IMG/VR virus record: IMGVR_UViG_3300018411_000030 | Span: 1-50,871 of that record | Reading direction: 5' to 3' (one strand) | Length of the DNA stretch: 50,871 bases | Source: a virus | Shown: in pieces, positions 10,981 to 49,101 of the stretch | Layout: each line of letters opens with the position of its first letter | How positions within the stretch are numbered: the first letter of the stretch is position 1 | The notes under the pieces: model-generated | Database searches by the model: none | What the model saw: only the letters and a program-made list of their open reading frames with translations | Told to the model about the DNA's origin: nothing | Made by a program: the position numbers and the translations under genes

Positions 10981-11334
10981 ATGGTAGAAGTTATGAACCC
11001 AACCGCCGTAGAAGAAATTGAACTGAACATTAAGCAAGCGCAGAAGATTGTCGACGTTGGTACGTCGCTTGAACGACTGCTGCTCAACCGTGACTTCAAG
11101 AAAGTTATTGTTGAAGGTTACTTGGAACAAGAAGCTGTGCGCCTGGTGCACCTCAAAGCGGATGAGAGTATGCAAACTCCGGCCAAGCAAGAGTCTGTTG
11201 TTAAACAGATCGATGCCATTGGTGCGTTGAGTTCGTACCTCAACACTGTGCGGTGGAAAGCAGCACAAGCAGTTAAGGCTATTGATGCCGACGAACAAAC
11301 CCGCGAAGAGTTGATTCAGGAGGACGTTGAATAA
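10981..11334 (+). CDS. Conserved virion-assembly region protein (N4 gp58-like)
   Basis: A 117-residue helical protein with no catalytic motif. It starts at ATG 10981 (a second ATG at 10993 is possible) and its last codon overlaps the ATG of the next gene (TAATG), implying coupling. The place between portal and scaffold candidate matches N4 gene 58 in order. Charged heptad-like helices (EELIQEDVE at the end) suggest a small structural or assembly factor. No function is known to me. Confidence 0.65.
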   Translation: MVEVMNPTAVEEIELNIKQAQKIVDVGTSLERLLLNRDFKKVIVEGYLEQEAVRLVHLKADESMQTPAKQESVVKQIDAIGALSSYLNTVRWKAAQAVKAIDADEQTREELIQEDVE

Positions 11335-12482
11335 TGTCCGAAGAATTGAACCAGGATAACGAACAGGACGTTGTATCCCTACTGGATTTGCCTGACGATG
11401 AATTGGTGAAGTTCGACCTGGAAGCCCATCTCCAGAACAACACCTCCACGGAAGAAGCCACTACCGAAGCAGTAGAAGAGCCTGACGTTGAGGAAGTAGA
11501 CGAACCCGCAGTCGAGGCTGAAGGCGGTACGCCGGAAGCCGAAGACGAAGGTGAGTCTGCTGACGAAGAAGAAGAACCTGAAGTCGCTGCCGCTGCTGAA
11601 GTAGAAGACGAAGAGCCTGAAGAAGCAAAGCCAGAAAAGGCGGATGCTGAGGCGTTCGACTACGAAGCGGAATACAAAAAGATCACTGCACCGTTCAAGG
11701 CGAACGGTAAAGATATGCACGTTAAGTCGGCGGACGACATTGTTGCGCTTATGCAAATGGGCGCGAACTACAACAAGAAGATGGCCGCGCTTAAACCCAA
11801 TTTGAAGTTGATGAAACTTCTAGAGAATAATGGGTTACTCAGCGAAGAAAAGTTGAGCTTCCTGATTGATTTGGATAAAAAGAATCCTGATGCAATCAGT
11901 AAGCTGGTTAAAGACAGTGGGATTGACCCATTGGATATGGACGTTAACAAGGAGAGCGGATACAAGCCGAAAACTTACACTGTTGACGATCGGGAATTGG
12001 AGCTGGACTCGGTACTTGAAAGTATTCAAGACACACCGACCTACGCACAAACAATTAACGTAGTGAGCACTAAGTGGGATGGCCCAAGTAAACAAGCAGT
12101 CGCGGAATCGCCTCAGCTGTTGAAAGTTATTAACGACCACATCTCAAGTGGCGTGTACGACTTGATCAGTAATGAAGTGGAACGTGAGCGCATGTTTGGA
12201 CGCTTGAGAAGTGTGTCGGATATTGAAGCTTATCGCCAGGTAGGTGACTCGCTGGATGCAAAGGGTGCGTTTAACCATCTGTTTAATCAGGGGCAACAGC
12301 AGCCAGCACCAAAGCAAGTAATCACCCCACCGGCTAAAGCAGAAGATCCAACTCGCCAGGCCAAGAAGCGGGCAGCCAGTACAACTAAAGCTGTGCCTAC
12401 CAACAAAGTAGCAGCGGACTTCAATCCTCTGTCTTTGTCGGATGAGGAATTCAGCAAAAGTTTTAATTCCCGACTCCTGTAA
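11334..12482 (+). CDS. Putative scaffolding protein (N4 gp57-like)
   Basis: A 382-residue protein. Residues 1-105 are extremely acidic and repetitive in Glu/Asp/Ala, the middle is helical (EYKKITAPFKANGKDMHVKS onward), and the C-terminus is basic (ARQAKKRAAS) with a final SLSDEEFSKSFNSRLL. An acidic, low-complexity, helical protein immediately before the major capsid gene, with a basic C-terminal end, is typical of scaffolds that bind the coat protein during prohead assembly. This assignment is by composition and position. Confidence 0.7.
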   Translation: MSEELNQDNEQDVVSLLDLPDDELVKFDLEAHLQNNTSTEEATTEAVEEPDVEEVDEPAVEAEGGTPEAEDEGESADEEEEPEVAAAAEVEDEEPEEAKPEKADAEAFDYEAEYKKITAPFKANGKDMHVKSADDIVALMQMGANYNKKMAALKPNLKLMKLLENNGLLSEEKLSFLIDLDKKNPDAISKLVKDSGIDPLDMDVNKESGYKPKTYTVDDRELELDSVLESIQDTPTYAQTINVVSTKWDGPSKQAVAESPQLLKVINDHISSGVYDLISNEVERERMFGRLRSVSDIEAYRQVGDSLDAKGAFNHLFNQGQQQPAPKQVITPPAKAEDPTRQAKKRAASTTKAVPTNKVAADFNPLSLSDEEFSKSFNSRLL

Positions 12483-40086: not shown

Positions 40087-41817
40087 CTATGCACTACAGG
40101 CCACACACTCGTCTTTCACCACAATGCCACTACGTGAGTAGATGTAGTACTGGCTCAGAATGTTCTCGTCCAACAGCACTGCAGTCAGCAGCTCTGCAAT
40201 GAGGTCTTCGGAGCCATCCTCTGGCACGTAGAAGTTCAGGCTCTGACCCTGACAGGTCCACTTCTGACGTAGGCTGGCGTGACGTAGCAGGACCATCTGC
40301 TGCATTTCAAAGGCATTCTTGAAGACTGCCTTCTCCTGCTCGCTCATCCAGTCCAGGTGCTGGCCTGAGCCGAGCTTGTCGATGACGCTCTGGATGGTTT
40401 CCTCGTTGTACACCCCACGGCTCTTCATGAGCTCGTAGAACACGGGGGTGATACGACGCAGTTCACCAACACTGGAACCGGCGTCGTAGATCAAGCCTGG
40501 ATCAGGGAACCAGGATTCACTGACGCCACCCATGAGCAGGGCAGTGGTCTTGGTAGGGGCATAGGCAATGCGGTGGGTGTTACGCACCCCGTAGCCTTTA
40601 CACCACTCCGGTTCGCCATACTCTTTGGCCAACCACTGACTAGCACGCAAGGATTCGTCATGCAGGTGCTTGGCGATCTTGGTGCTGAGGAACTGCGCAT
40701 CCAGACTCTCGTAGGGAATGCTGTTCATCTGCAGGTAGGTGTGGAAGCCCATTACGCCCAAACCAATGGCACGGCCCTTGAGGGTGAATTCTCGGACCTT
40801 CTCGAGACCAATGATGTCCGCGGATTTCTCAATGAACTCCGAGCACAGGCAGTCCAAGAATACTGTGGCAATGAAGGCTGATTCACTGTTCTGGATACGG
40901 TCCCAGTGCACCAGGTTCAGGGAAGCCAAGATGCAGGAGTAGGTCAGCATCTCCGAGCTGTGCAACATGATCTCGGTGCACAGGTTGGTGGCTTCAATAA
41001 ACAAGCCCCAGTCCTTGTACATCTGCGGACGGTGGCGGTTAGCCGTGTCCACTTTGAAGATGTAGCCCTTGCCGGTAATCAGCTTGGTGTACACCGCCTT
41101 GATCCAGCGACGGTTAGCTTCTGGCTCATTGGCTTTAAGGCGATCGATGAATGAATCACGGATGATCCAGCCATAGTTCTTACCGTTGTGGTCGTGTGCC
41201 AGGCTGTCGCAGGCCTCATCCCAGTCACCGTGCTCGATGTCCAGGTACGCGCCAATAGAGCCGCGACGTGCACCGCCTTGACTGATCTTGGACACCGCAG
41301 TGAAGAAGTCATTGATGACTTCAACAGCACCGTTGGCTTTGCCGCCTTTGCTGATCTTGCTACCACGCGGACGGATTTTGCTGAAGTTGGCTGAAGTGCC
41401 AAAGCCTTGCTGAGACAGTAAGGCTGTTTCCTTAAGCCCCTCGTAGAAGCTGGGAACGCTGTCCTGAATGTCCTGACCGGAACAGGCCACCATCATGCCG
41501 CGCTCGGTACCGGTGTTAGCCAGGGCAGGTGAGGAGGGCGACAAGACACCATCCCAGAGCTCATTAAAGAACTTCTGTTCCCACTCCAGCTCACGGCCTT
41601 TCATGTGCTTGGCGAGCGTGTGGGAGATCTTTAGGTGACGGCCATAGACGGCGGCTTCACCAGGGACTTGGTACTTCTGCTTGAACATCTGCCAGCCTTG
41701 GGTGGTGTACCAAAGAGGCAGACGACCAAGTTCCTGTAGCTGCTTGCGTTCAAGACTGAGCTTTTCAAACTCTTGTAGGGTGGATTCGTCCACGTTGCCG
41801 GTGATTTCAAACGCCAT
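40087..41817 (-). CDS. nrdA: Ribonucleotide reductase class I large subunit
   Basis: A 576-residue enzyme that reduces ribonucleotides to deoxyribonucleotides. The redox pair is C112 (MMVACSGQD) and C295 (LTYSCILASL); the catalytic N278-x-C280-x-E282 is in NLCTEIML. The P-loop-like APTKTTALLMGG and the end CVAC (572-575), which takes electrons from thioredoxin or glutaredoxin, are present. The chain is shorter than host NrdA (about 760), and the N-terminal ATP-cone is missing, so overall dATP feedback inhibition is probably absent. It overlaps nrdB by 11 bases. Confidence 0.93.
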   Translation of the reverse strand: MAFEITGNVDESTLQEFEKLSLERKQLQELGRLPLWYTTQGWQMFKQKYQVPGEAAVYGRHLKISHTLAKHMKGRELEWEQKFFNELWDGVLSPSSPALANTGTERGMMVACSGQDIQDSVPSFYEGLKETALLSQQGFGTSANFSKIRPRGSKISKGGKANGAVEVINDFFTAVSKISQGGARRGSIGAYLDIEHGDWDEACDSLAHDHNGKNYGWIIRDSFIDRLKANEPEANRRWIKAVYTKLITGKGYIFKVDTANRHRPQMYKDWGLFIEATNLCTEIMLHSSEMLTYSCILASLNLVHWDRIQNSESAFIATVFLDCLCSEFIEKSADIIGLEKVREFTLKGRAIGLGVMGFHTYLQMNSIPYESLDAQFLSTKIAKHLHDESLRASQWLAKEYGEPEWCKGYGVRNTHRIAYAPTKTTALLMGGVSESWFPDPGLIYDAGSSVGELRRITPVFYELMKSRGVYNEETIQSVIDKLGSGQHLDWMSEQEKAVFKNAFEMQQMVLLRHASLRQKWTCQGQSLNFYVPEDGSEDLIAELLTAVLLDENILSQYYIYSRSGIVVKDECVACSA

Positions 41818-42823
41818 GGACCATCTCCAACTTAAAGCGAAGTTTGTATTGAGCCCAGTTACGGGTGTATTGCAGCTGGGTGTTGGCGAAGAAGTCAGGG
41901 ACTTTCACCGTGGACAACTGCTGGTAGAACCAGGTGCTGATGACGCCGTTCTTGTTGCCAAACAGTGGCTCCATTTCCAGGCGCTTGAGCACCACGTCGA
42001 TACGGTCTTCGTGGAAGGCCAGTAGCTCGTCTTCAGTGACCACACGGTTACCCGGCACCTCAAACAACTTTCGGGTGATCAGGATTTCGTGCTGTGATAC
42101 GTCACGGGCCATCTGCAGGATCTTGCGCTTGAGGGCAGCGTCCTGTTCTGGGCTGTGGTTACCGGCTGCAATGCGCTCAGCACGGCACTGAAGGAACAGT
42201 TGCGCGGAAGCGATCGAGTGGAAGTTTTCATCCTTGGTACTGCCGTCGATACCACTGACGAAGTGACCAATGAAGTTGAAGCCACGACTGTTGAAGCCTT
42301 TGAAGAAACCCAGTGCAGTGAACAGCACAGCGCCTTCTAAGAAGGCCAAGGCTGCAGTCACCTCTAGGGCGTCCTCACTGGCTGCACACTCACTGATAAA
42401 GCGAATGCGTTCCGCCAGTACCGGGTCTTTCTTCCACTGGCTGTAGAACTCGTCATTGGCCTTGCCCAGTACTTCGTTAGCCAGGTTGTAGAACGGGGCA
42501 TGGGAACCCAGCTCGACGTTGGCAAAGCAGGCACACATGCGCTGGATCTCAGGCCGCGGGAACATGCGAGCAATCTTGCCGCCCCACATCTCATCGCCAC
42601 CAATCATCAGCTCGTACTGCGTGATGATTGATTGTGCAGTGAGGATGCCGTGCAACTCGCCTGGGGTCAGGTTGGTACGGAAGTCTTGGGCATCTTGTTC
42701 CACACCCAGCTCTTCGGCTGGCCAGAATAGTGATTGCTGGGTAATGGCCATCTCAGTGGCCCACGGGTAGCGAGCCACATAGGAGTCGGTTGGGGTTTCA
42801 ATCTGGCTCAGGTATTCGCTCAT
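41807..42823 (-). CDS. nrdB: Ribonucleotide reductase class I small subunit
   Basis: A 338-residue di-iron radical subunit, partner of NrdA. Metal/radical residues appear as NVELGSHAPFY (E104, H108, Y112), FLEGAVLF (E163) and DENFHSIAS (E199, H202). The first site is ExxxH rather than the ExxH of E. coli, as I recall for some phage enzymes. It starts within the thyX stop (ATGA at 42820-42823), so thyX, nrdB and nrdA form one coupled operon that supplies dNTPs. Confidence 0.92.
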   Translation of the reverse strand: MSEYLSQIETPTDSYVARYPWATEMAITQQSLFWPAEELGVEQDAQDFRTNLTPGELHGILTAQSIITQYELMIGGDEMWGGKIARMFPRPEIQRMCACFANVELGSHAPFYNLANEVLGKANDEFYSQWKKDPVLAERIRFISECAASEDALEVTAALAFLEGAVLFTALGFFKGFNSRGFNFIGHFVSGIDGSTKDENFHSIASAQLFLQCRAERIAAGNHSPEQDAALKRKILQMARDVSQHEILITRKLFEVPGNRVVTEDELLAFHEDRIDVVLKRLEMEPLFGNKNGVISTWFYQQLSTVKVPDFFANTQLQYTRNWAQYKLRFKLEMVHGV

Positions 42824-43677: not shown

Positions 43678-44844
43678 ATGAGTGCTGATTTTTGCGGTAC
43701 GGGTCAGTGGAGCGGCCCTAAACCAGGTGATCCCGACAACAATAGTATCTTGTACGCAAGCCCTGGGTTTGGCGGTATTGATGTTGCGTGGACGTACCCT
43801 GGAGTAAACCCCCATGCGGTGGCCCATGTAATTCTGTTTAGGAGTTCTTCCGCTGATCCTACGACTATGGTGCAACATGCCATTGTCGATGGCTCTTTTT
43901 TCTTTGATCGCATCGACTCAGCCACCCCCATTCAGTATTACTACTGGATCAGGATTGTTTCCATTAATGGCACCGTAGGGGATGTTATTGGGCCTGCCAG
44001 TAGTACGGCGAGAAGCAGCATTGAAGACACTATAAGATCACTCAGCGGTAAGATTGATGAGGGCGTGCTATCACAAACGCTTAAAGCTGAGATTGACCGT
44101 ATTAAGGTTAATGCCTTTGATCTCTCTCAAGAGATACTGGACCGGGCATTAAATGATGATGCCTTGGGGGCTTCGTTTAACACGATCCAGGCCTTCTCAG
44201 AAGAAACCCGTGCACTGGTGCAAACAGAAGCCATCGCTCGGACGGAGGCCGACTCAGCCTTTGTAGGGGTAGCAAACACCCTGTACGCAAGTGTTGAGCA
44301 AAACACAGCCTCTATTCAGGACTTGTCCAAAGTTATTGTGGAGGTGGACGCCGCTAGTGCACTAAGGGTGTCTCAGGCAGAGGCTCAACTGGGGAGCAAT
44401 TTAAGCCAGGTAGAGCAGGCCATGAGCAGTGATATTGAGCGTGTAGATGGGCGCATTGTTACGCTCAGTGCTCAGTGGACAGCCAAGGTTCAGGTCAATG
44501 GTTTGATTGGTGGCTTTGGTATCTACGCCTCTGATGACGGCACAGTAAGGGAAGTGCAAGCAGGCTTTGACGTAGATACATTCTTTGTAGGACGTACCAA
44601 CACAGCAGGCATTAAGCCTTTCATTGTGTCCGGTAATGAGGTGTTTATTAACGGGGCGGTGATCAACTCCCTGACGTTTAATAAACTCCGTGCGGATGAC
44701 GGCAGCCTGGCTTTTGCCAACGGCAAACTGCAGGCCAAATACATTGAAGTAGAAAATCTTTCGATTACCAATGCCAACTTCAAAGGTGATTTGAAGTCTG
44801 ACAACTATGTACCAGGCGTCAGTGGCTGGATCATAAAAAAGTAG
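43678..44844 (+). CDS. Tail-tip protein with lambda J/DUF1983-like region; -1 frameshift site at its end
   Basis: A 388-residue zero-frame product. The N-terminus has a fibronectin-like part (ILYASPGFGGIDVAWTYPG; YYYWIRIVSINGTVGDV), the middle is a coiled coil, and residues 260-350 match the DUF1983-type end of lambda gpJ (GGFGIYASDDGTV; VDTFFVGRTN; KPFIVSGNEVFINGAVI). The reading frame stops at TAG 44842, right after A-AAA-AAG. A -1 slip continues to 45437 and gives about 586 residues (the slip site and stem are listed separately). J-like proteins bind the host receptor; finding one in a podophage tail is unusual. Confidence 0.8.
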   Translation: MSADFCGTGQWSGPKPGDPDNNSILYASPGFGGIDVAWTYPGVNPHAVAHVILFRSSSADPTTMVQHAIVDGSFFFDRIDSATPIQYYYWIRIVSINGTVGDVIGPASSTARSSIEDTIRSLSGKIDEGVLSQTLKAEIDRIKVNAFDLSQEILDRALNDDALGASFNTIQAFSEETRALVQTEAIARTEADSAFVGVANTLYASVEQNTASIQDLSKVIVEVDAASALRVSQAEAQLGSNLSQVEQAMSSDIERVDGRIVTLSAQWTAKVQVNGLIGGFGIYASDDGTVREVQAGFDVDTFFVGRTNTAGIKPFIVSGNEVFINGAVINSLTFNKLRADDGSLAFANGKLQAKYIEVENLSITNANFKGDLKSDNYVPGVSGWIIKK

Positions 44845-44880
44845 ATGCCATCTCCCTGGCTTACCCACAGGCAGATGGCA
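44835..44880 (+). promoter_or_regulatory. Programmed -1 ribosomal frameshift signal
   Basis: The heptamer A-AAA-AAG (44835-44841) is in the correct zero-frame phase (ATA AAA AAG TAG). After a four-base gap, TGCCATCT (44846-44853) pairs with AGATGGCA (44873-44880). Above a C-C mismatch, CCTG (44855-44858) pairs with CAGG (44868-44871), giving 12 bp with one mismatch. The -1 frame is open to 45437. This is the dnaX-type arrangement. Confidence 0.75.
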
Positions 44881-44900
44881 GTACAACAACTGGGTTGTTC

Positions 44901-45437
44901 ATGGCGGAATTTAATGACGCCACGTTTGCAGGGGATGTATCTGGACTAGATGGAACTTTCTCAGGTACGTTGACGGCACGAGCAATTAATGCGGCTAACA
45001 ACATCAACATTGCAGGTAACTCTGTAGCCAGAACCACCGTCAGTACGCGTGATATATCCAACTCATTTGACGACGACTCTGTGTGGCGTTCGGTACACCA
45101 ACACACCGTCTTAGTACCCTCTGAAGATACTCAAGGGGGTTGGTTAAACACAGCCATCCAATACAGTGTTTATGACCGAAAGGGGAGGGAGAACCATCAC
45201 TTTCCTGCCCAATTGCGGTTCAGAATAAACGGCCTGGTTATATACACCACACCCAACTGGATTCTTTTAGGGGACTTTTACAAGGCGTACGGCGATATGT
45301 ACTCTGAAATTGTATACCGTGCCCCTGCTCCCGGTGCTTACACCATATCCATGGATCTGCGGGTAGGGGATAGAAATACCAATATGTATATCGAGTTTGT
45401 AAACATAGTATTCAGAACAGATTACTTCAGGAAATAG
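44901..45437 (+). CDS. Tail-tip module 1 (frameshift extension of the J-like protein)
   Basis: The -1 frame continues from 44841 (VDAISLAYPQADGSTTTG) into AEFNDATFAGDVSG, GTFSGTLTARAINAANNINI and a C-terminal beta-rich domain, to 45437. The lambda J pattern is GWxI followed by AEFN, so the extension reads as one protein with the gene before it. An independent start at ATG 44901 is possible but has no good ribosome site. The N-terminal 45 residues are paralogous to the next two genes, whose C-terminal domains differ. Confidence 0.7.
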   Translation: MAEFNDATFAGDVSGLDGTFSGTLTARAINAANNINIAGNSVARTTVSTRDISNSFDDDSVWRSVHQHTVLVPSEDTQGGWLNTAIQYSVYDRKGRENHHFPAQLRFRINGLVIYTTPNWILLGDFYKAYGDMYSEIVYRAPAPGAYTISMDLRVGDRNTNMYIEFVNIVFRTDYFRK

Positions 45438-45438
45438 T

Positions 45439-45885
45439 ATGTCCTTTGTCGAACTCTCTAACACGATGTTTCGAGGTCACCTAAAAGCTGCATCAGGGTC
45501 AGCTAAATTCAAACTTACTGCGCAGGCCATTAATGCTGTAGATACCCTTAACATTAACTACAATCAAGTCACGTATGACCGCCTTATTACATACAACCGG
45601 GCTTACCAGCAGGCCGGTTCTGTATTAGCGGCTATGTTATTAGATATTCCCGACACCACGGCCTGGGTGGAAATTGTAGCGTACGGTACTTATGCAGGGG
45701 GGGTGACTGTGGATGGAGGCTGGCGTATTAATAGAAACCGTAGATCCCCTAACCAACCTTTATTGCCGTTTGTAGAACTTGTTCTATTAAACAAAGGGCA
45801 GCACACGGTGCAACTGCACTCAGCAGGATCGGGTGCAAGTTCTGGTTTGATTCTGTGTAGGTATATCAGGGCAACAGGAGGGTAG
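45439..45885 (+). CDS. Tail-tip module 2 (paralogue)
   Basis: A 148-residue protein with AGGAA before its ATG. Its start (VELSNTMFRGHLKAASGSAK, then LTAQAINAVDTLNINYNQV) is paralogous to the extension before it and the gene after it. The remaining 90 residues are a separate beta-rich domain (TAWVEIVAYGTYAGG; FVELVLLNKGQHTVQLH). It is likely a small carbohydrate- or receptor-binding tip domain mounted on a common adaptor. Confidence 0.65.
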   Translation: MSFVELSNTMFRGHLKAASGSAKFKLTAQAINAVDTLNINYNQVTYDRLITYNRAYQQAGSVLAAMLLDIPDTTAWVEIVAYGTYAGGVTVDGGWRINRNRRSPNQPLLPFVELVLLNKGQHTVQLHSAGSGASSGLILCRYIRATGG

Positions 45886-45886
45886 T

Positions 45887-46432
45887 GTGGACACAGGGTA
45901 TGCAGAATTTAATGACTCCACTAGCAAGTTGCGTGGGATTATGGTGGCAGGTACTGGCACCTTTTCAGGTACTTTTTCTGCCCAGAACATTGATGCTATT
46001 TCTCACGTTAATGTGCGTGATGGGGCAGTATCTGCACATATAGGATTCAATTTTCCTCAGGGTAGTACCTCAGCTGCCTTTGCAGTACCAGGACAACTCC
46101 ACGCATCAGTGGCAGACATTACCATCCCCATATCAGTGTTGAGTGATGGCCCCTCTGAAGCAAACCCTGGTTTTATTGAGCTACACAAAAATGGGCAGTT
46201 ACTACAGCGCGCAAGTATTGGGGTGAGGGCTACTGTAGGTTTTTTTCAAGTGGCTCGTTTTATTGATAGTGACGTTAGTGGTACGTCTTATTACCAAGTG
46301 GTATTACAAGGCTCCTCCTATTTGTATTACGAAACTAAGGGCGTAGGTAAAGATAGAGAAGTCTTTACGAGGTGGGGGAGCTTGAGCTTAGGTCTAATTG
46401 GTGCGGTAACAGTTGGTTTTAGAAAGAGGTGA
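45887..46432 (+). CDS. Tail-tip module 3 (paralogue)
   Basis: A 181-residue protein starting at GTG 45887, after a very strong AGGAGG. The N-terminus YAEFNDSTSKLRGIMVAGTG, then GTFSGTFSAQNIDAISHVNV, repeats the module 1 pattern almost residue for residue. The C-terminal domain (about 120 residues) is different and ends in basic FRKR. Three such genes in a row suggest duplication followed by change in the binding part. Confidence 0.65.
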   Translation: MDTGYAEFNDSTSKLRGIMVAGTGTFSGTFSAQNIDAISHVNVRDGAVSAHIGFNFPQGSTSAAFAVPGQLHASVADITIPISVLSDGPSEANPGFIELHKNGQLLQRASIGVRATVGFFQVARFIDSDVSGTSYYQVVLQGSSYLYYETKGVGKDREVFTRWGSLSLGLIGAVTVGFRKR

Positions 46433-46435
46433 CAA

Positions 46436-46834
46436 ATGATTACTGCAACAGTATATGAAAAAGAACAGGGCATGGTCTTAATGACAGTTGAAGCCCCTGA
46501 TGAAGAAACCGTACTGCTACAAATCCAAGATCCCAAGAAAGAAGAGATTCTGTGGGGTGAAAAGATTGATGGCTTAAAGTTCTATTTTGTTGCGGGTGCT
46601 GCAGTACCACGGCCTGTGTTTACGTTAGAGATCAAAAACGGCCTGACAGTGGCTGCTGGGCAAGTACTGCGTATTGGCAAAGTACCCATTGGCTGCACGG
46701 TGCGGTATCCAGGCGGTACTGCAGTGGTGAATGACGGGTACATCGAATGGGCGTCTGTGACTCCAGGTACATTTGATTTCACCTTCTCCCTATTCCCCTA
46801 CCAGGAGATGACCCTTAATGCCATCGTTAGGTAG
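46436..46834 (+). CDS. Small tail-associated protein, beta-rich
   Basis: A 132-residue protein with AGAGGTGACAA before the ATG. It is built of short strands (MITATVYEKEQGMVLMTVEA; FTLEIKNGLTVAAGQVLRIG) and has a Gly/Pro-rich centre. It resembles the first half of tail-fibre assembly or cap proteins that pair with a DUF4376-like partner, which here is the next gene, overlapping by 17 bases. Chaperone or structural part cannot be told apart. Confidence 0.6.
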   Translation: MITATVYEKEQGMVLMTVEAPDEETVLLQIQDPKKEEILWGEKIDGLKFYFVAGAAVPRPVFTLEIKNGLTVAAGQVLRIGKVPIGCTVRYPGGTAVVNDGYIEWASVTPGTFDFTFSLFPYQEMTLNAIVR

Positions 46835-47192
46835 TTATGACGCACTGCGCCAACAAGAGGCATCAACAGACGACATCAATGCGGCTCGAGACAGGGCAGA
46901 GAAGTTGGTAAAGACTTCTAAAGGTGTCCTGCAATTTGATGCGCAGAGTGAACAGCGTATGCGGGTTGTCCTGGCTTCCCTTAATGAGCCTGGTGCCAAG
47001 GTACATTGGAAGATGGCGGACAACAGTACAGTCGAACTGTCTGAGGCCTCTATGAGTGCCCTGATTGAAGAGGCCACAGTTAATATGGCTGCAAGGATTC
47101 AAACGGTGTTTGCTAGGGCGTCGTTGTTAAAAACCAAGAAGAACTTAGGGCAGGTGGTAACCTTAAGGGACATTAGTGAGGAACAGTGGTAA
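46818..47192 (+). CDS. DUF4376-like tail-fibre assembly-associated protein
   Basis: A 124-residue helical protein. The C-terminal part (HWKMADNSTVELSEASMSAL, then MAARIQTVFARASLLK) follows the DUF4376 pattern, usually fused to or beside tail-fibre assembly proteins. It overlaps the gene before it. It probably helps fold or attach fibre subunits; the family's mechanism is not known. Confidence 0.65.
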   Translation: MPSLGSYDALRQQEASTDDINAARDRAEKLVKTSKGVLQFDAQSEQRMRVVLASLNEPGAKVHWKMADNSTVELSEASMSALIEEATVNMAARIQTVFARASLLKTKKNLGQVVTLRDISEEQW

Positions 47193-47721: not shown

Positions 47722-49101
47722 ATGCGGTTTGGTCTGTCTTTATTTGGTGGTGCGGTAACAGGGCTTGTCATTGCGGCAGGTGCTTCAAGCTGTGCTGCCT
47801 CTGCGTCAGCCCAAACTTTAGTCACTCGCTTGGGTGCAGTAACGCTGTCTGCCCAAGCGGTGGCTGCTCCTGCAGATGTTCGCCGGGTAGCCGGTGTCTT
47901 TCCTTCAGTGCTCACTGCCTTAGCAACAGCGGCAGGTGCATCACAGGTTGAATTCCACCCTTTGCCGACTACGGCAACAGGGCAAGCAGTGGCCCAAACT
48001 GGTCAAGCTGTTGCTGAATACAGCGGCTACGGGTTTGCTAACGGGTACTCGTATTCTCAGGCACGCGCTGTTCGCATGGTTCGCCTTTTCCCAAAACAGG
48101 CTCAAGCGTTTGCGTGGGCTGAGGGTAATGCGCAAACCTGGCAGTTTGGGCACGCCAACCCTGCACGGGCAAAGGCCATTGGTTTTGGTACGACTTACCA
48201 TGTGGGTAATGTGCGTGCTGTTGCGTCTGCCCATGCTTATGCCACTCCAGCAATGGAGATTGGTGGCAAGGGTATTGGTTACGCCTACTCGTATGCAGAA
48301 GGCACCTGCCTGTATCAAGGCGGTGTAGCTGGCTACGGTCAGGCGACTTCTTATGTGTTGGCAGATCCTGTCGTCACCAAGAATGGTGTTGTGTACCAAG
48401 AAGCTAACGGCTTTGGGGTGTCTTCTGCACTGGGTGAAATACTCACCACTACGGTGTATCAGTCACAGACTGCCAGGGCTTATGCCATTTTGGTGGCCTA
48501 CCCGAAAACCCAAGTTGGGGGTAAAGGTAGAGCCTCTGCTCGTGCGCTGGGGTATGGCGATGGGTTGTCGATGGCAACCGGCGCTACGTTGGTGGTGGGT
48601 AACTCTGCTGCAACTGTAGTAGCTAAAGCCTCTAAACAAGCCAGAGGTAAGAGCACTGCAGTGGCCAGGGCACTGGCTACAGGTGACGGCCTAAAACGAC
48701 AAACCCGTGTCAGCGGTACCGGTGTTTCCCGCGCTACTGCACAGGCTACTTGCTTGCGCACATGTACTGTCAAGAGTACTGCCACAGCCCGTGCACTAAT
48801 AACGGCAAGCAACATACGCACAACCACCCCTAAATTACCTGTACTTCGTGCCGTGGCAACAGGCAGTAATACCCACAGCTTCTTAGAAGTGCAAGGCTCC
48901 CCTGTTAATGCCACCGCCCACGTATCTGCACAGGCTTTTAAAGACTTGGTGGGAAGCGGTACAGCCGTGTTTATTGCAGTGGGTGAAGGTTTTAACCAAG
49001 TGAATGACCTGGTTAGAGCACCGCTTAATAGAACCAGTACTGTACTCGCAGGGTCGCGGACCTCAAGCCTGGTATCCCAATCCCGTACTTCTACAGTCTG
49101 A
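47722..49101 (+). CDS. Ala-rich repeat tail protein
   Basis: A 459-residue low-complexity protein. After a hydrophobic start (MRFGLSLFGGAVTGLVIAAG) it is made of alternating Ala/Ser/Thr/Gly strands. The middle has Tyr/Phe-Gly pairs (YSGYGFANGYSYSQARAV; GIGYAYSYAEG), and residues 260-420 contain degenerate repeats around ARALGYGDGL, ARALATGDGL, ARALITASNI and AVATGSNTHS, about 30-35 residues apart. This is typical of a beta-solenoid or fibrous tail part. No enzymatic motif is seen. A secretion signal is unlikely in this setting, though the N-terminus could anchor to other tail proteins. Confidence 0.65.
   Translation: MRFGLSLFGGAVTGLVIAAGASSCAASASAQTLVTRLGAVTLSAQAVAAPADVRRVAGVFPSVLTALATAAGASQVEFHPLPTTATGQAVAQTGQAVAEYSGYGFANGYSYSQARAVRMVRLFPKQAQAFAWAEGNAQTWQFGHANPARAKAIGFGTTYHVGNVRAVASAHAYATPAMEIGGKGIGYAYSYAEGTCLYQGGVAGYGQATSYVLADPVVTKNGVVYQEANGFGVSSALGEILTTTVYQSQTARAYAILVAYPKTQVGGKGRASARALGYGDGLSMATGATLVVGNSAATVVAKASKQARGKSTAVARALATGDGLKRQTRVSGTGVSRATAQATCLRTCTVKSTATARALITASNIRTTTPKLPVLRAVATGSNTHSFLEVQGSPVNATAHVSAQAFKDLVGSGTAVFIAVGEGFNQVNDLVRAPLNRTSTVLAGSRTSSLVSQSRTSTV

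Follow-up and report, generated by a model that had tools for sequence, protein, structure and literature searches.

Programmed -1 ribosomal frameshifting in phages is best known for tail chaperones and capsid proteins. In the tail assembly chaperone system (lambda G/GT; reviewed in PMC5009743), a -1 frameshift near the 3' end of a tail gene gives a longer minor product. In the phiEco32-like podophages, the major capsid protein is extended by a -1 frameshift on a GGGAAAG heptamer, which adds an Ig-like extension (PMC4281155, PMC9965538). The A_AAA_AAG heptamer with a downstream hairpin at short spacing is known from the -1 frameshift signals of dnaX and IS3-family elements (PMC4066793). As for receptor-binding fibres, gp56 of phage DEV (Litunavirus) is a gpJ-like short fibre that forms a trimeric trunk and carries gp55 and the receptor-binding gp54 at its C-terminal beta-helix. 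The gp56-gp55-gp54 fibre was modelled as an asymmetric 3:1:1 complex, and the authors suggested that the module spreads horizontally (PMC12892993).

Here we analysed a 50,871-nt virus contig, IMG/VR record IMGVR_UViG_3300018411_000030 (the window). A preliminary description had proposed that a programmed -1 frameshift joins a J-like tail-tip protein of a podophage to an extension. The sequence features were confirmed. The 0-frame gene ends ATC ATA AAA AAG TAG, so that A_AAA_AAG lies in phase directly before the stop codon, and the stem pairs 44846-44853 and 44855-44858 with 44868-44871 and 44873-44880. The -1 frame reads KKVDAISLAYPQADGSTTTGLFMAEFN... and is open for 198 codons (44841-45434) up to a stop at 45435-45437, giving a fusion product of 586 aa. 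The features of the locus are as follows.

43678..44844 (+), 0-frame gene for a gpJ-like short tail fibre trunk (388 aa), homologue of DEV gp56, ending GWIIKK-stop
44835..44841 (+), slippery heptamer A_AAA_AAG, in phase
44842..44844 (+), 0-frame stop TAG directly after the heptamer
44846..44880 (+), putative stimulatory stem-loop, 12 bp with one C-C mismatch and a 9-nt loop
44841..45437 (+), -1-frame extension of 198 residues (trans-frame peptide, then AEFN beta-helix-type module, then C-terminal beta-sandwich; folds from a predicted model)
44901..44903 (+), the only ATG ahead of AEFN, a possible alternative internal start with a weak Shine-Dalgarno, absent in nickieviruses
45439..45885 (+), ORF2, stand-alone protein starting with the same AEFN-type module
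45887..46432 (+), ORF3, stand-alone protein starting with the same AEFN module, with a strong Shine-Dalgarno
46436..46834 (+), ORF4 of the shared tip cassette
46818..47192 (+), ORF5 of the shared tip cassette

Two points of the preliminary description had to be corrected. The 4-nt spacer depends on an outer U-A pair that is not conserved, and the conserved stem starts about 6 nt after the heptamer. In addition, GWIIKK and AEFN, which had been described as restoring the lambda-J order, are not directly joined; 21 residues (VDAISLAYPQADGSTTTGLFM) lie between them, far more than in in-frame relatives such as GWILRANGSLEFN.

To clarify the genome context, the window proteins were compared with PHROG and Pfam profiles. 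The window carries a giant virion RNA polymerase, an N4-type RNA polymerase and a portal (phrog_2206, phrog_2166, phrog_1216), as well as a primase, so it is a Schitoviridae podophage fragment; the preliminary description had also held it to be a podophage. The 0-frame protein matched the tail fiber phrog_496 (E 1.9e-72), the central tail fiber J phrog_31 and Pfam Phage_Tail_Tip. It was 45-49% identical over 97-98% to Schitoviridae tail fiber proteins of Littlefixvirus, Shizishanvirus and Litunavirus, with 45% identity over 98% for the Litunavirus homologue. In the in-frame relatives read, including those of Litunavirus, however, the trunk continues in-frame about 42 residues beyond the GW motif (for example GWILRANGSLEFNG...) without a slippery site at that point, and of the other J relatives read, those in which the GW site could be located also continue in-frame past it. 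The gp55 and gp54 positions are occupied here by a cassette of the extension, ORF2, ORF3, ORF4 and ORF5. The locus is not a tail assembly chaperone frameshift, since the gene is tail-fibre/gpJ homologous, the extension resembles the gpJ tip rather than a chaperone T domain, and the gene sits in the fibre cluster, far from the gene named tape measure at 11334-12482. Just before this cluster, two ribonucleotide-reductase-like genes, named from sequence by eye, lie at 40087-42823 (-).

Since a slippery heptamer may occur by chance, we first asked whether the site was unusual within the window. AAAAAAG occurs 9 times in the window against 6.7 expected, and the 119-nt fold was not unusual by dinucleotide shuffling (z -1.05). 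The window-only statistics are thus weak. Nevertheless, among 26 window genes examined, no other 3'-end heptamer with a -1 extension of 50 codons or more was found.

To test whether the junction is conserved, relatives were searched in several ways. A DNA-level search of cultured phages found nothing, but the extension has protein homologues in five cultured Nickievirus phages. A relative of nickie, psageB1, is a siphovirus by microscopy (PMC8537276), and Nican01 is listed as a siphovirus (PMC11256456). In all five, the 1304-1311-aa J protein ends GW CLKK stop as CTA AAA AAG TAG, and the extension lies in the -1 frame. A heptamer-anchored scan of IMG/VR gave ten contigs, of which nine were true homologues and one was a chance hit. 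A separate scan by -1-frame peptides, which required no stop or stem, gave nine loci with the trans-frame peptide, and all nine had A_AAA_AAG followed by TAG or TAA. Together, the two searches recovered nine other IMG/VR contigs with the same junction, including phage nickie itself. A partial relative, L072, matched only part of the extension, in a region covered by a long in-frame ORF, and a scan of genome contigs gave 20 hits, none of them homologues. The contig L063 (the same contig as L007) and the contigs L064/L065 share neighbouring genes with the window and belong to the N4-like lineage; the other contigs are nickie-like, with long J genes where the length could be read. The reductase-like genes are also present in L063, but have no match in L064/L065, which instead hold a ~711-aa minus-strand ORF in that interval, suggesting a possible swap of reductase type.

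All twelve distinct loci compared keep A_AAA_AAG, an immediate TAG or TAA (TAA in the lineage of the loci L034/L035), a stem beginning about 6 nt later and a homologous trans-frame peptide. The site is also present in long-tailed nickieviruses and is therefore not podophage-specific. A sequencing or assembly error, or a frameshift mutation in a formerly in-frame gene, might have been considered because the window is a metagenomic contig and homopolymers are error-prone; however, the same A6G-stop occurs in independent contigs and in cultured-phage GenBank records, which makes this explanation extremely unlikely. Transcriptional slippage on the A6 run, adding one A, would also give mRNAs in the -1 frame. 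However, the run is always exactly A6G, in phase as a heptamer, with an adjacent stop and a stem at fixed spacing, no relative with A7 or more was found, and slippage sites usually seem to have longer runs. We consider this explanation very unlikely.

To further evaluate the stem, synonymous codons were randomised under the -1-frame protein. Every site folded better than expected (z -2.2 to -3.6 across the 12 loci, -2.4 to -2.7 for the window), while control windows along the same genes averaged z near zero, although a few of them folded as unexpectedly well as the site. Pairing was 92.7% in register against 31-50% when slid. In the loci L036 and L042, the 3' arm lies further downstream, yet the stem is kept. 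Compensatory substitutions alone were not significant: only one stem pair shows such a change (U-A in the window, A-U in the other loci that keep the pair), which is not beyond shuffles, and 7 of 12 pairs never vary. A possible pseudoknot between the loop (ACCCA) and UGGGU downstream in the window and L007 was not significant (shuffle p 0.15-0.22), and none was seen in nickie-like loci. The first A of the heptamer is supplied by rare codons, ATA in the window (6% of Ile) and CTA in nickie (1% of Leu). No Shine-Dalgarno-like element precedes the window heptamer. By contrast, most nickie-like loci (L066, L070 and L071, and the Nickievirus records L011 and L015) have GGGGUGG 5-11 nt before the heptamer (anti-SD duplex -9.5 kcal/mol); it encodes the conserved GW but could act as a second stimulator.

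The extension could alternatively be a separate protein, started at its own ATG or GTG by termination-reinitiation after the TAG, with the heptamer and stem being incidental. The window has an ATG at 44901 before AEFN, the paralogous ORF2 and ORF3 are separately started, and the GenBank records annotate the nickie extension as a separate gene. However, phage hairong and the locus L037 have no ATG, GTG or TTG in the extension frame before AEFN, so independent initiation from a usual start codon cannot make the extension there. The peptide between the stop and AEFN is homologous across lineages (conserved peptide KKVxxIxLxY...DG across the junction), and its -1-frame substitutions fall 23/12/49 on codon positions 1/2/3 over ten pairs, which are not fully independent. 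The Shine-Dalgarno score at ATG 44901 is at background level (-3.6 against a mean of -3.0), whereas ORF3-5 have -8 to -11. Separate initiation is therefore a very unlikely explanation, although a small amount of separate extension protein cannot be excluded in the window. The annotated nickie starts lie upstream inside the J gene, where the frame is merely open. In the Nickievirus records (L011-L015), the extension gene at locus 6923/6926 is given as a separate hypothetical protein, and the two should probably be joined as a ribosomal-slippage CDS.

Accordingly, in the absence of expression data, the junction is very probably a functional programmed -1 ribosomal frameshift, as the preliminary description had proposed. 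We infer that ribosomes finishing the gpJ-like fibre gene pause at the hairpin while tRNA-Lys sits on A_AAA_AAG, and that a fraction slip back one base, bypass the adjacent stop and add 198 residues, whereas the rest terminate at GWIIKK. The mechanism is known, and it is the gene context that is new: a review and two frameshift surveys checked do not mention a tail-fibre or tail-tip case, and further literature searches, restricted to open-licence papers, found none. A conserved site in the protein that carries the host-recognition tip would mean that two isoforms of the adhesion fibre are made on purpose.

To further elucidate what the products may be, the extension and the downstream genes were compared. 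In the window and all relatives examined, the extension is followed by colinear genes ORF2 to ORF5. The extension, ORF2 and ORF3 each begin with a similar module of about 40 residues (AEFN..xFRG...GTFSG.L.A..I.A...NI...AV) followed by different C-terminal domains. The identity to the extension was 37.5% over 40 aa for ORF2 and 41% over 44 aa for ORF3, and the modules were similar in all five loci aligned. The AlphaFold model of the extension had a mean pLDDT of 67.7, with about 70-90 for the C-terminal domain and low confidence for residues 1-63, which include the N-terminal module; its best matches among solved structures were to the lambda gpJ central fibre (E 3e-6). The ORF2 model gave no informative solved match.

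Since three different proteins each begin with a paralogous module, we speculated that, on a trunk inferred to be a homotrimer as in DEV, about one chain in three is the frameshift product, and that the extension, ORF2 and ORF3 form a heterotrimeric tip with three different receptor-binding faces. Frameshifting would then supply one covalent tether per fibre and offer a simple way to build an asymmetric tip on a symmetric trunk. In the same reading, the whole cassette, with its recoding signal, has moved between podophages and siphophages. We lean towards this mixed trimer only tentatively, because it rests on paralogy and on the DEV model rather than on a structure here. The preliminary description had instead suggested that the frameshift sets a ratio between tips with and without the extension. 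This simpler reading needs only two J isoforms and remains possible, with no less weight than the mixed trimer, but it does not explain why ORF2 and ORF3 carry the same module and are colinear in all relatives examined. Furthermore, independent mixing of isoforms would be expected to give mostly mixed trimers at intermediate efficiencies.

At 45420-45440, the extension ends FRK-stop, and the AGGAAA encoding RK may double as the ribosome-binding site of ORF2, whose ATG starts 1 nt after the stop; an RK or KK ending is kept in the relatives. Downstream of the cassette, a 459-aa Ala-rich repetitive protein (47722-49101, +) had no PHROG or Pfam match and was only 31-36% identical in close relatives whose neighbouring genes are better conserved.
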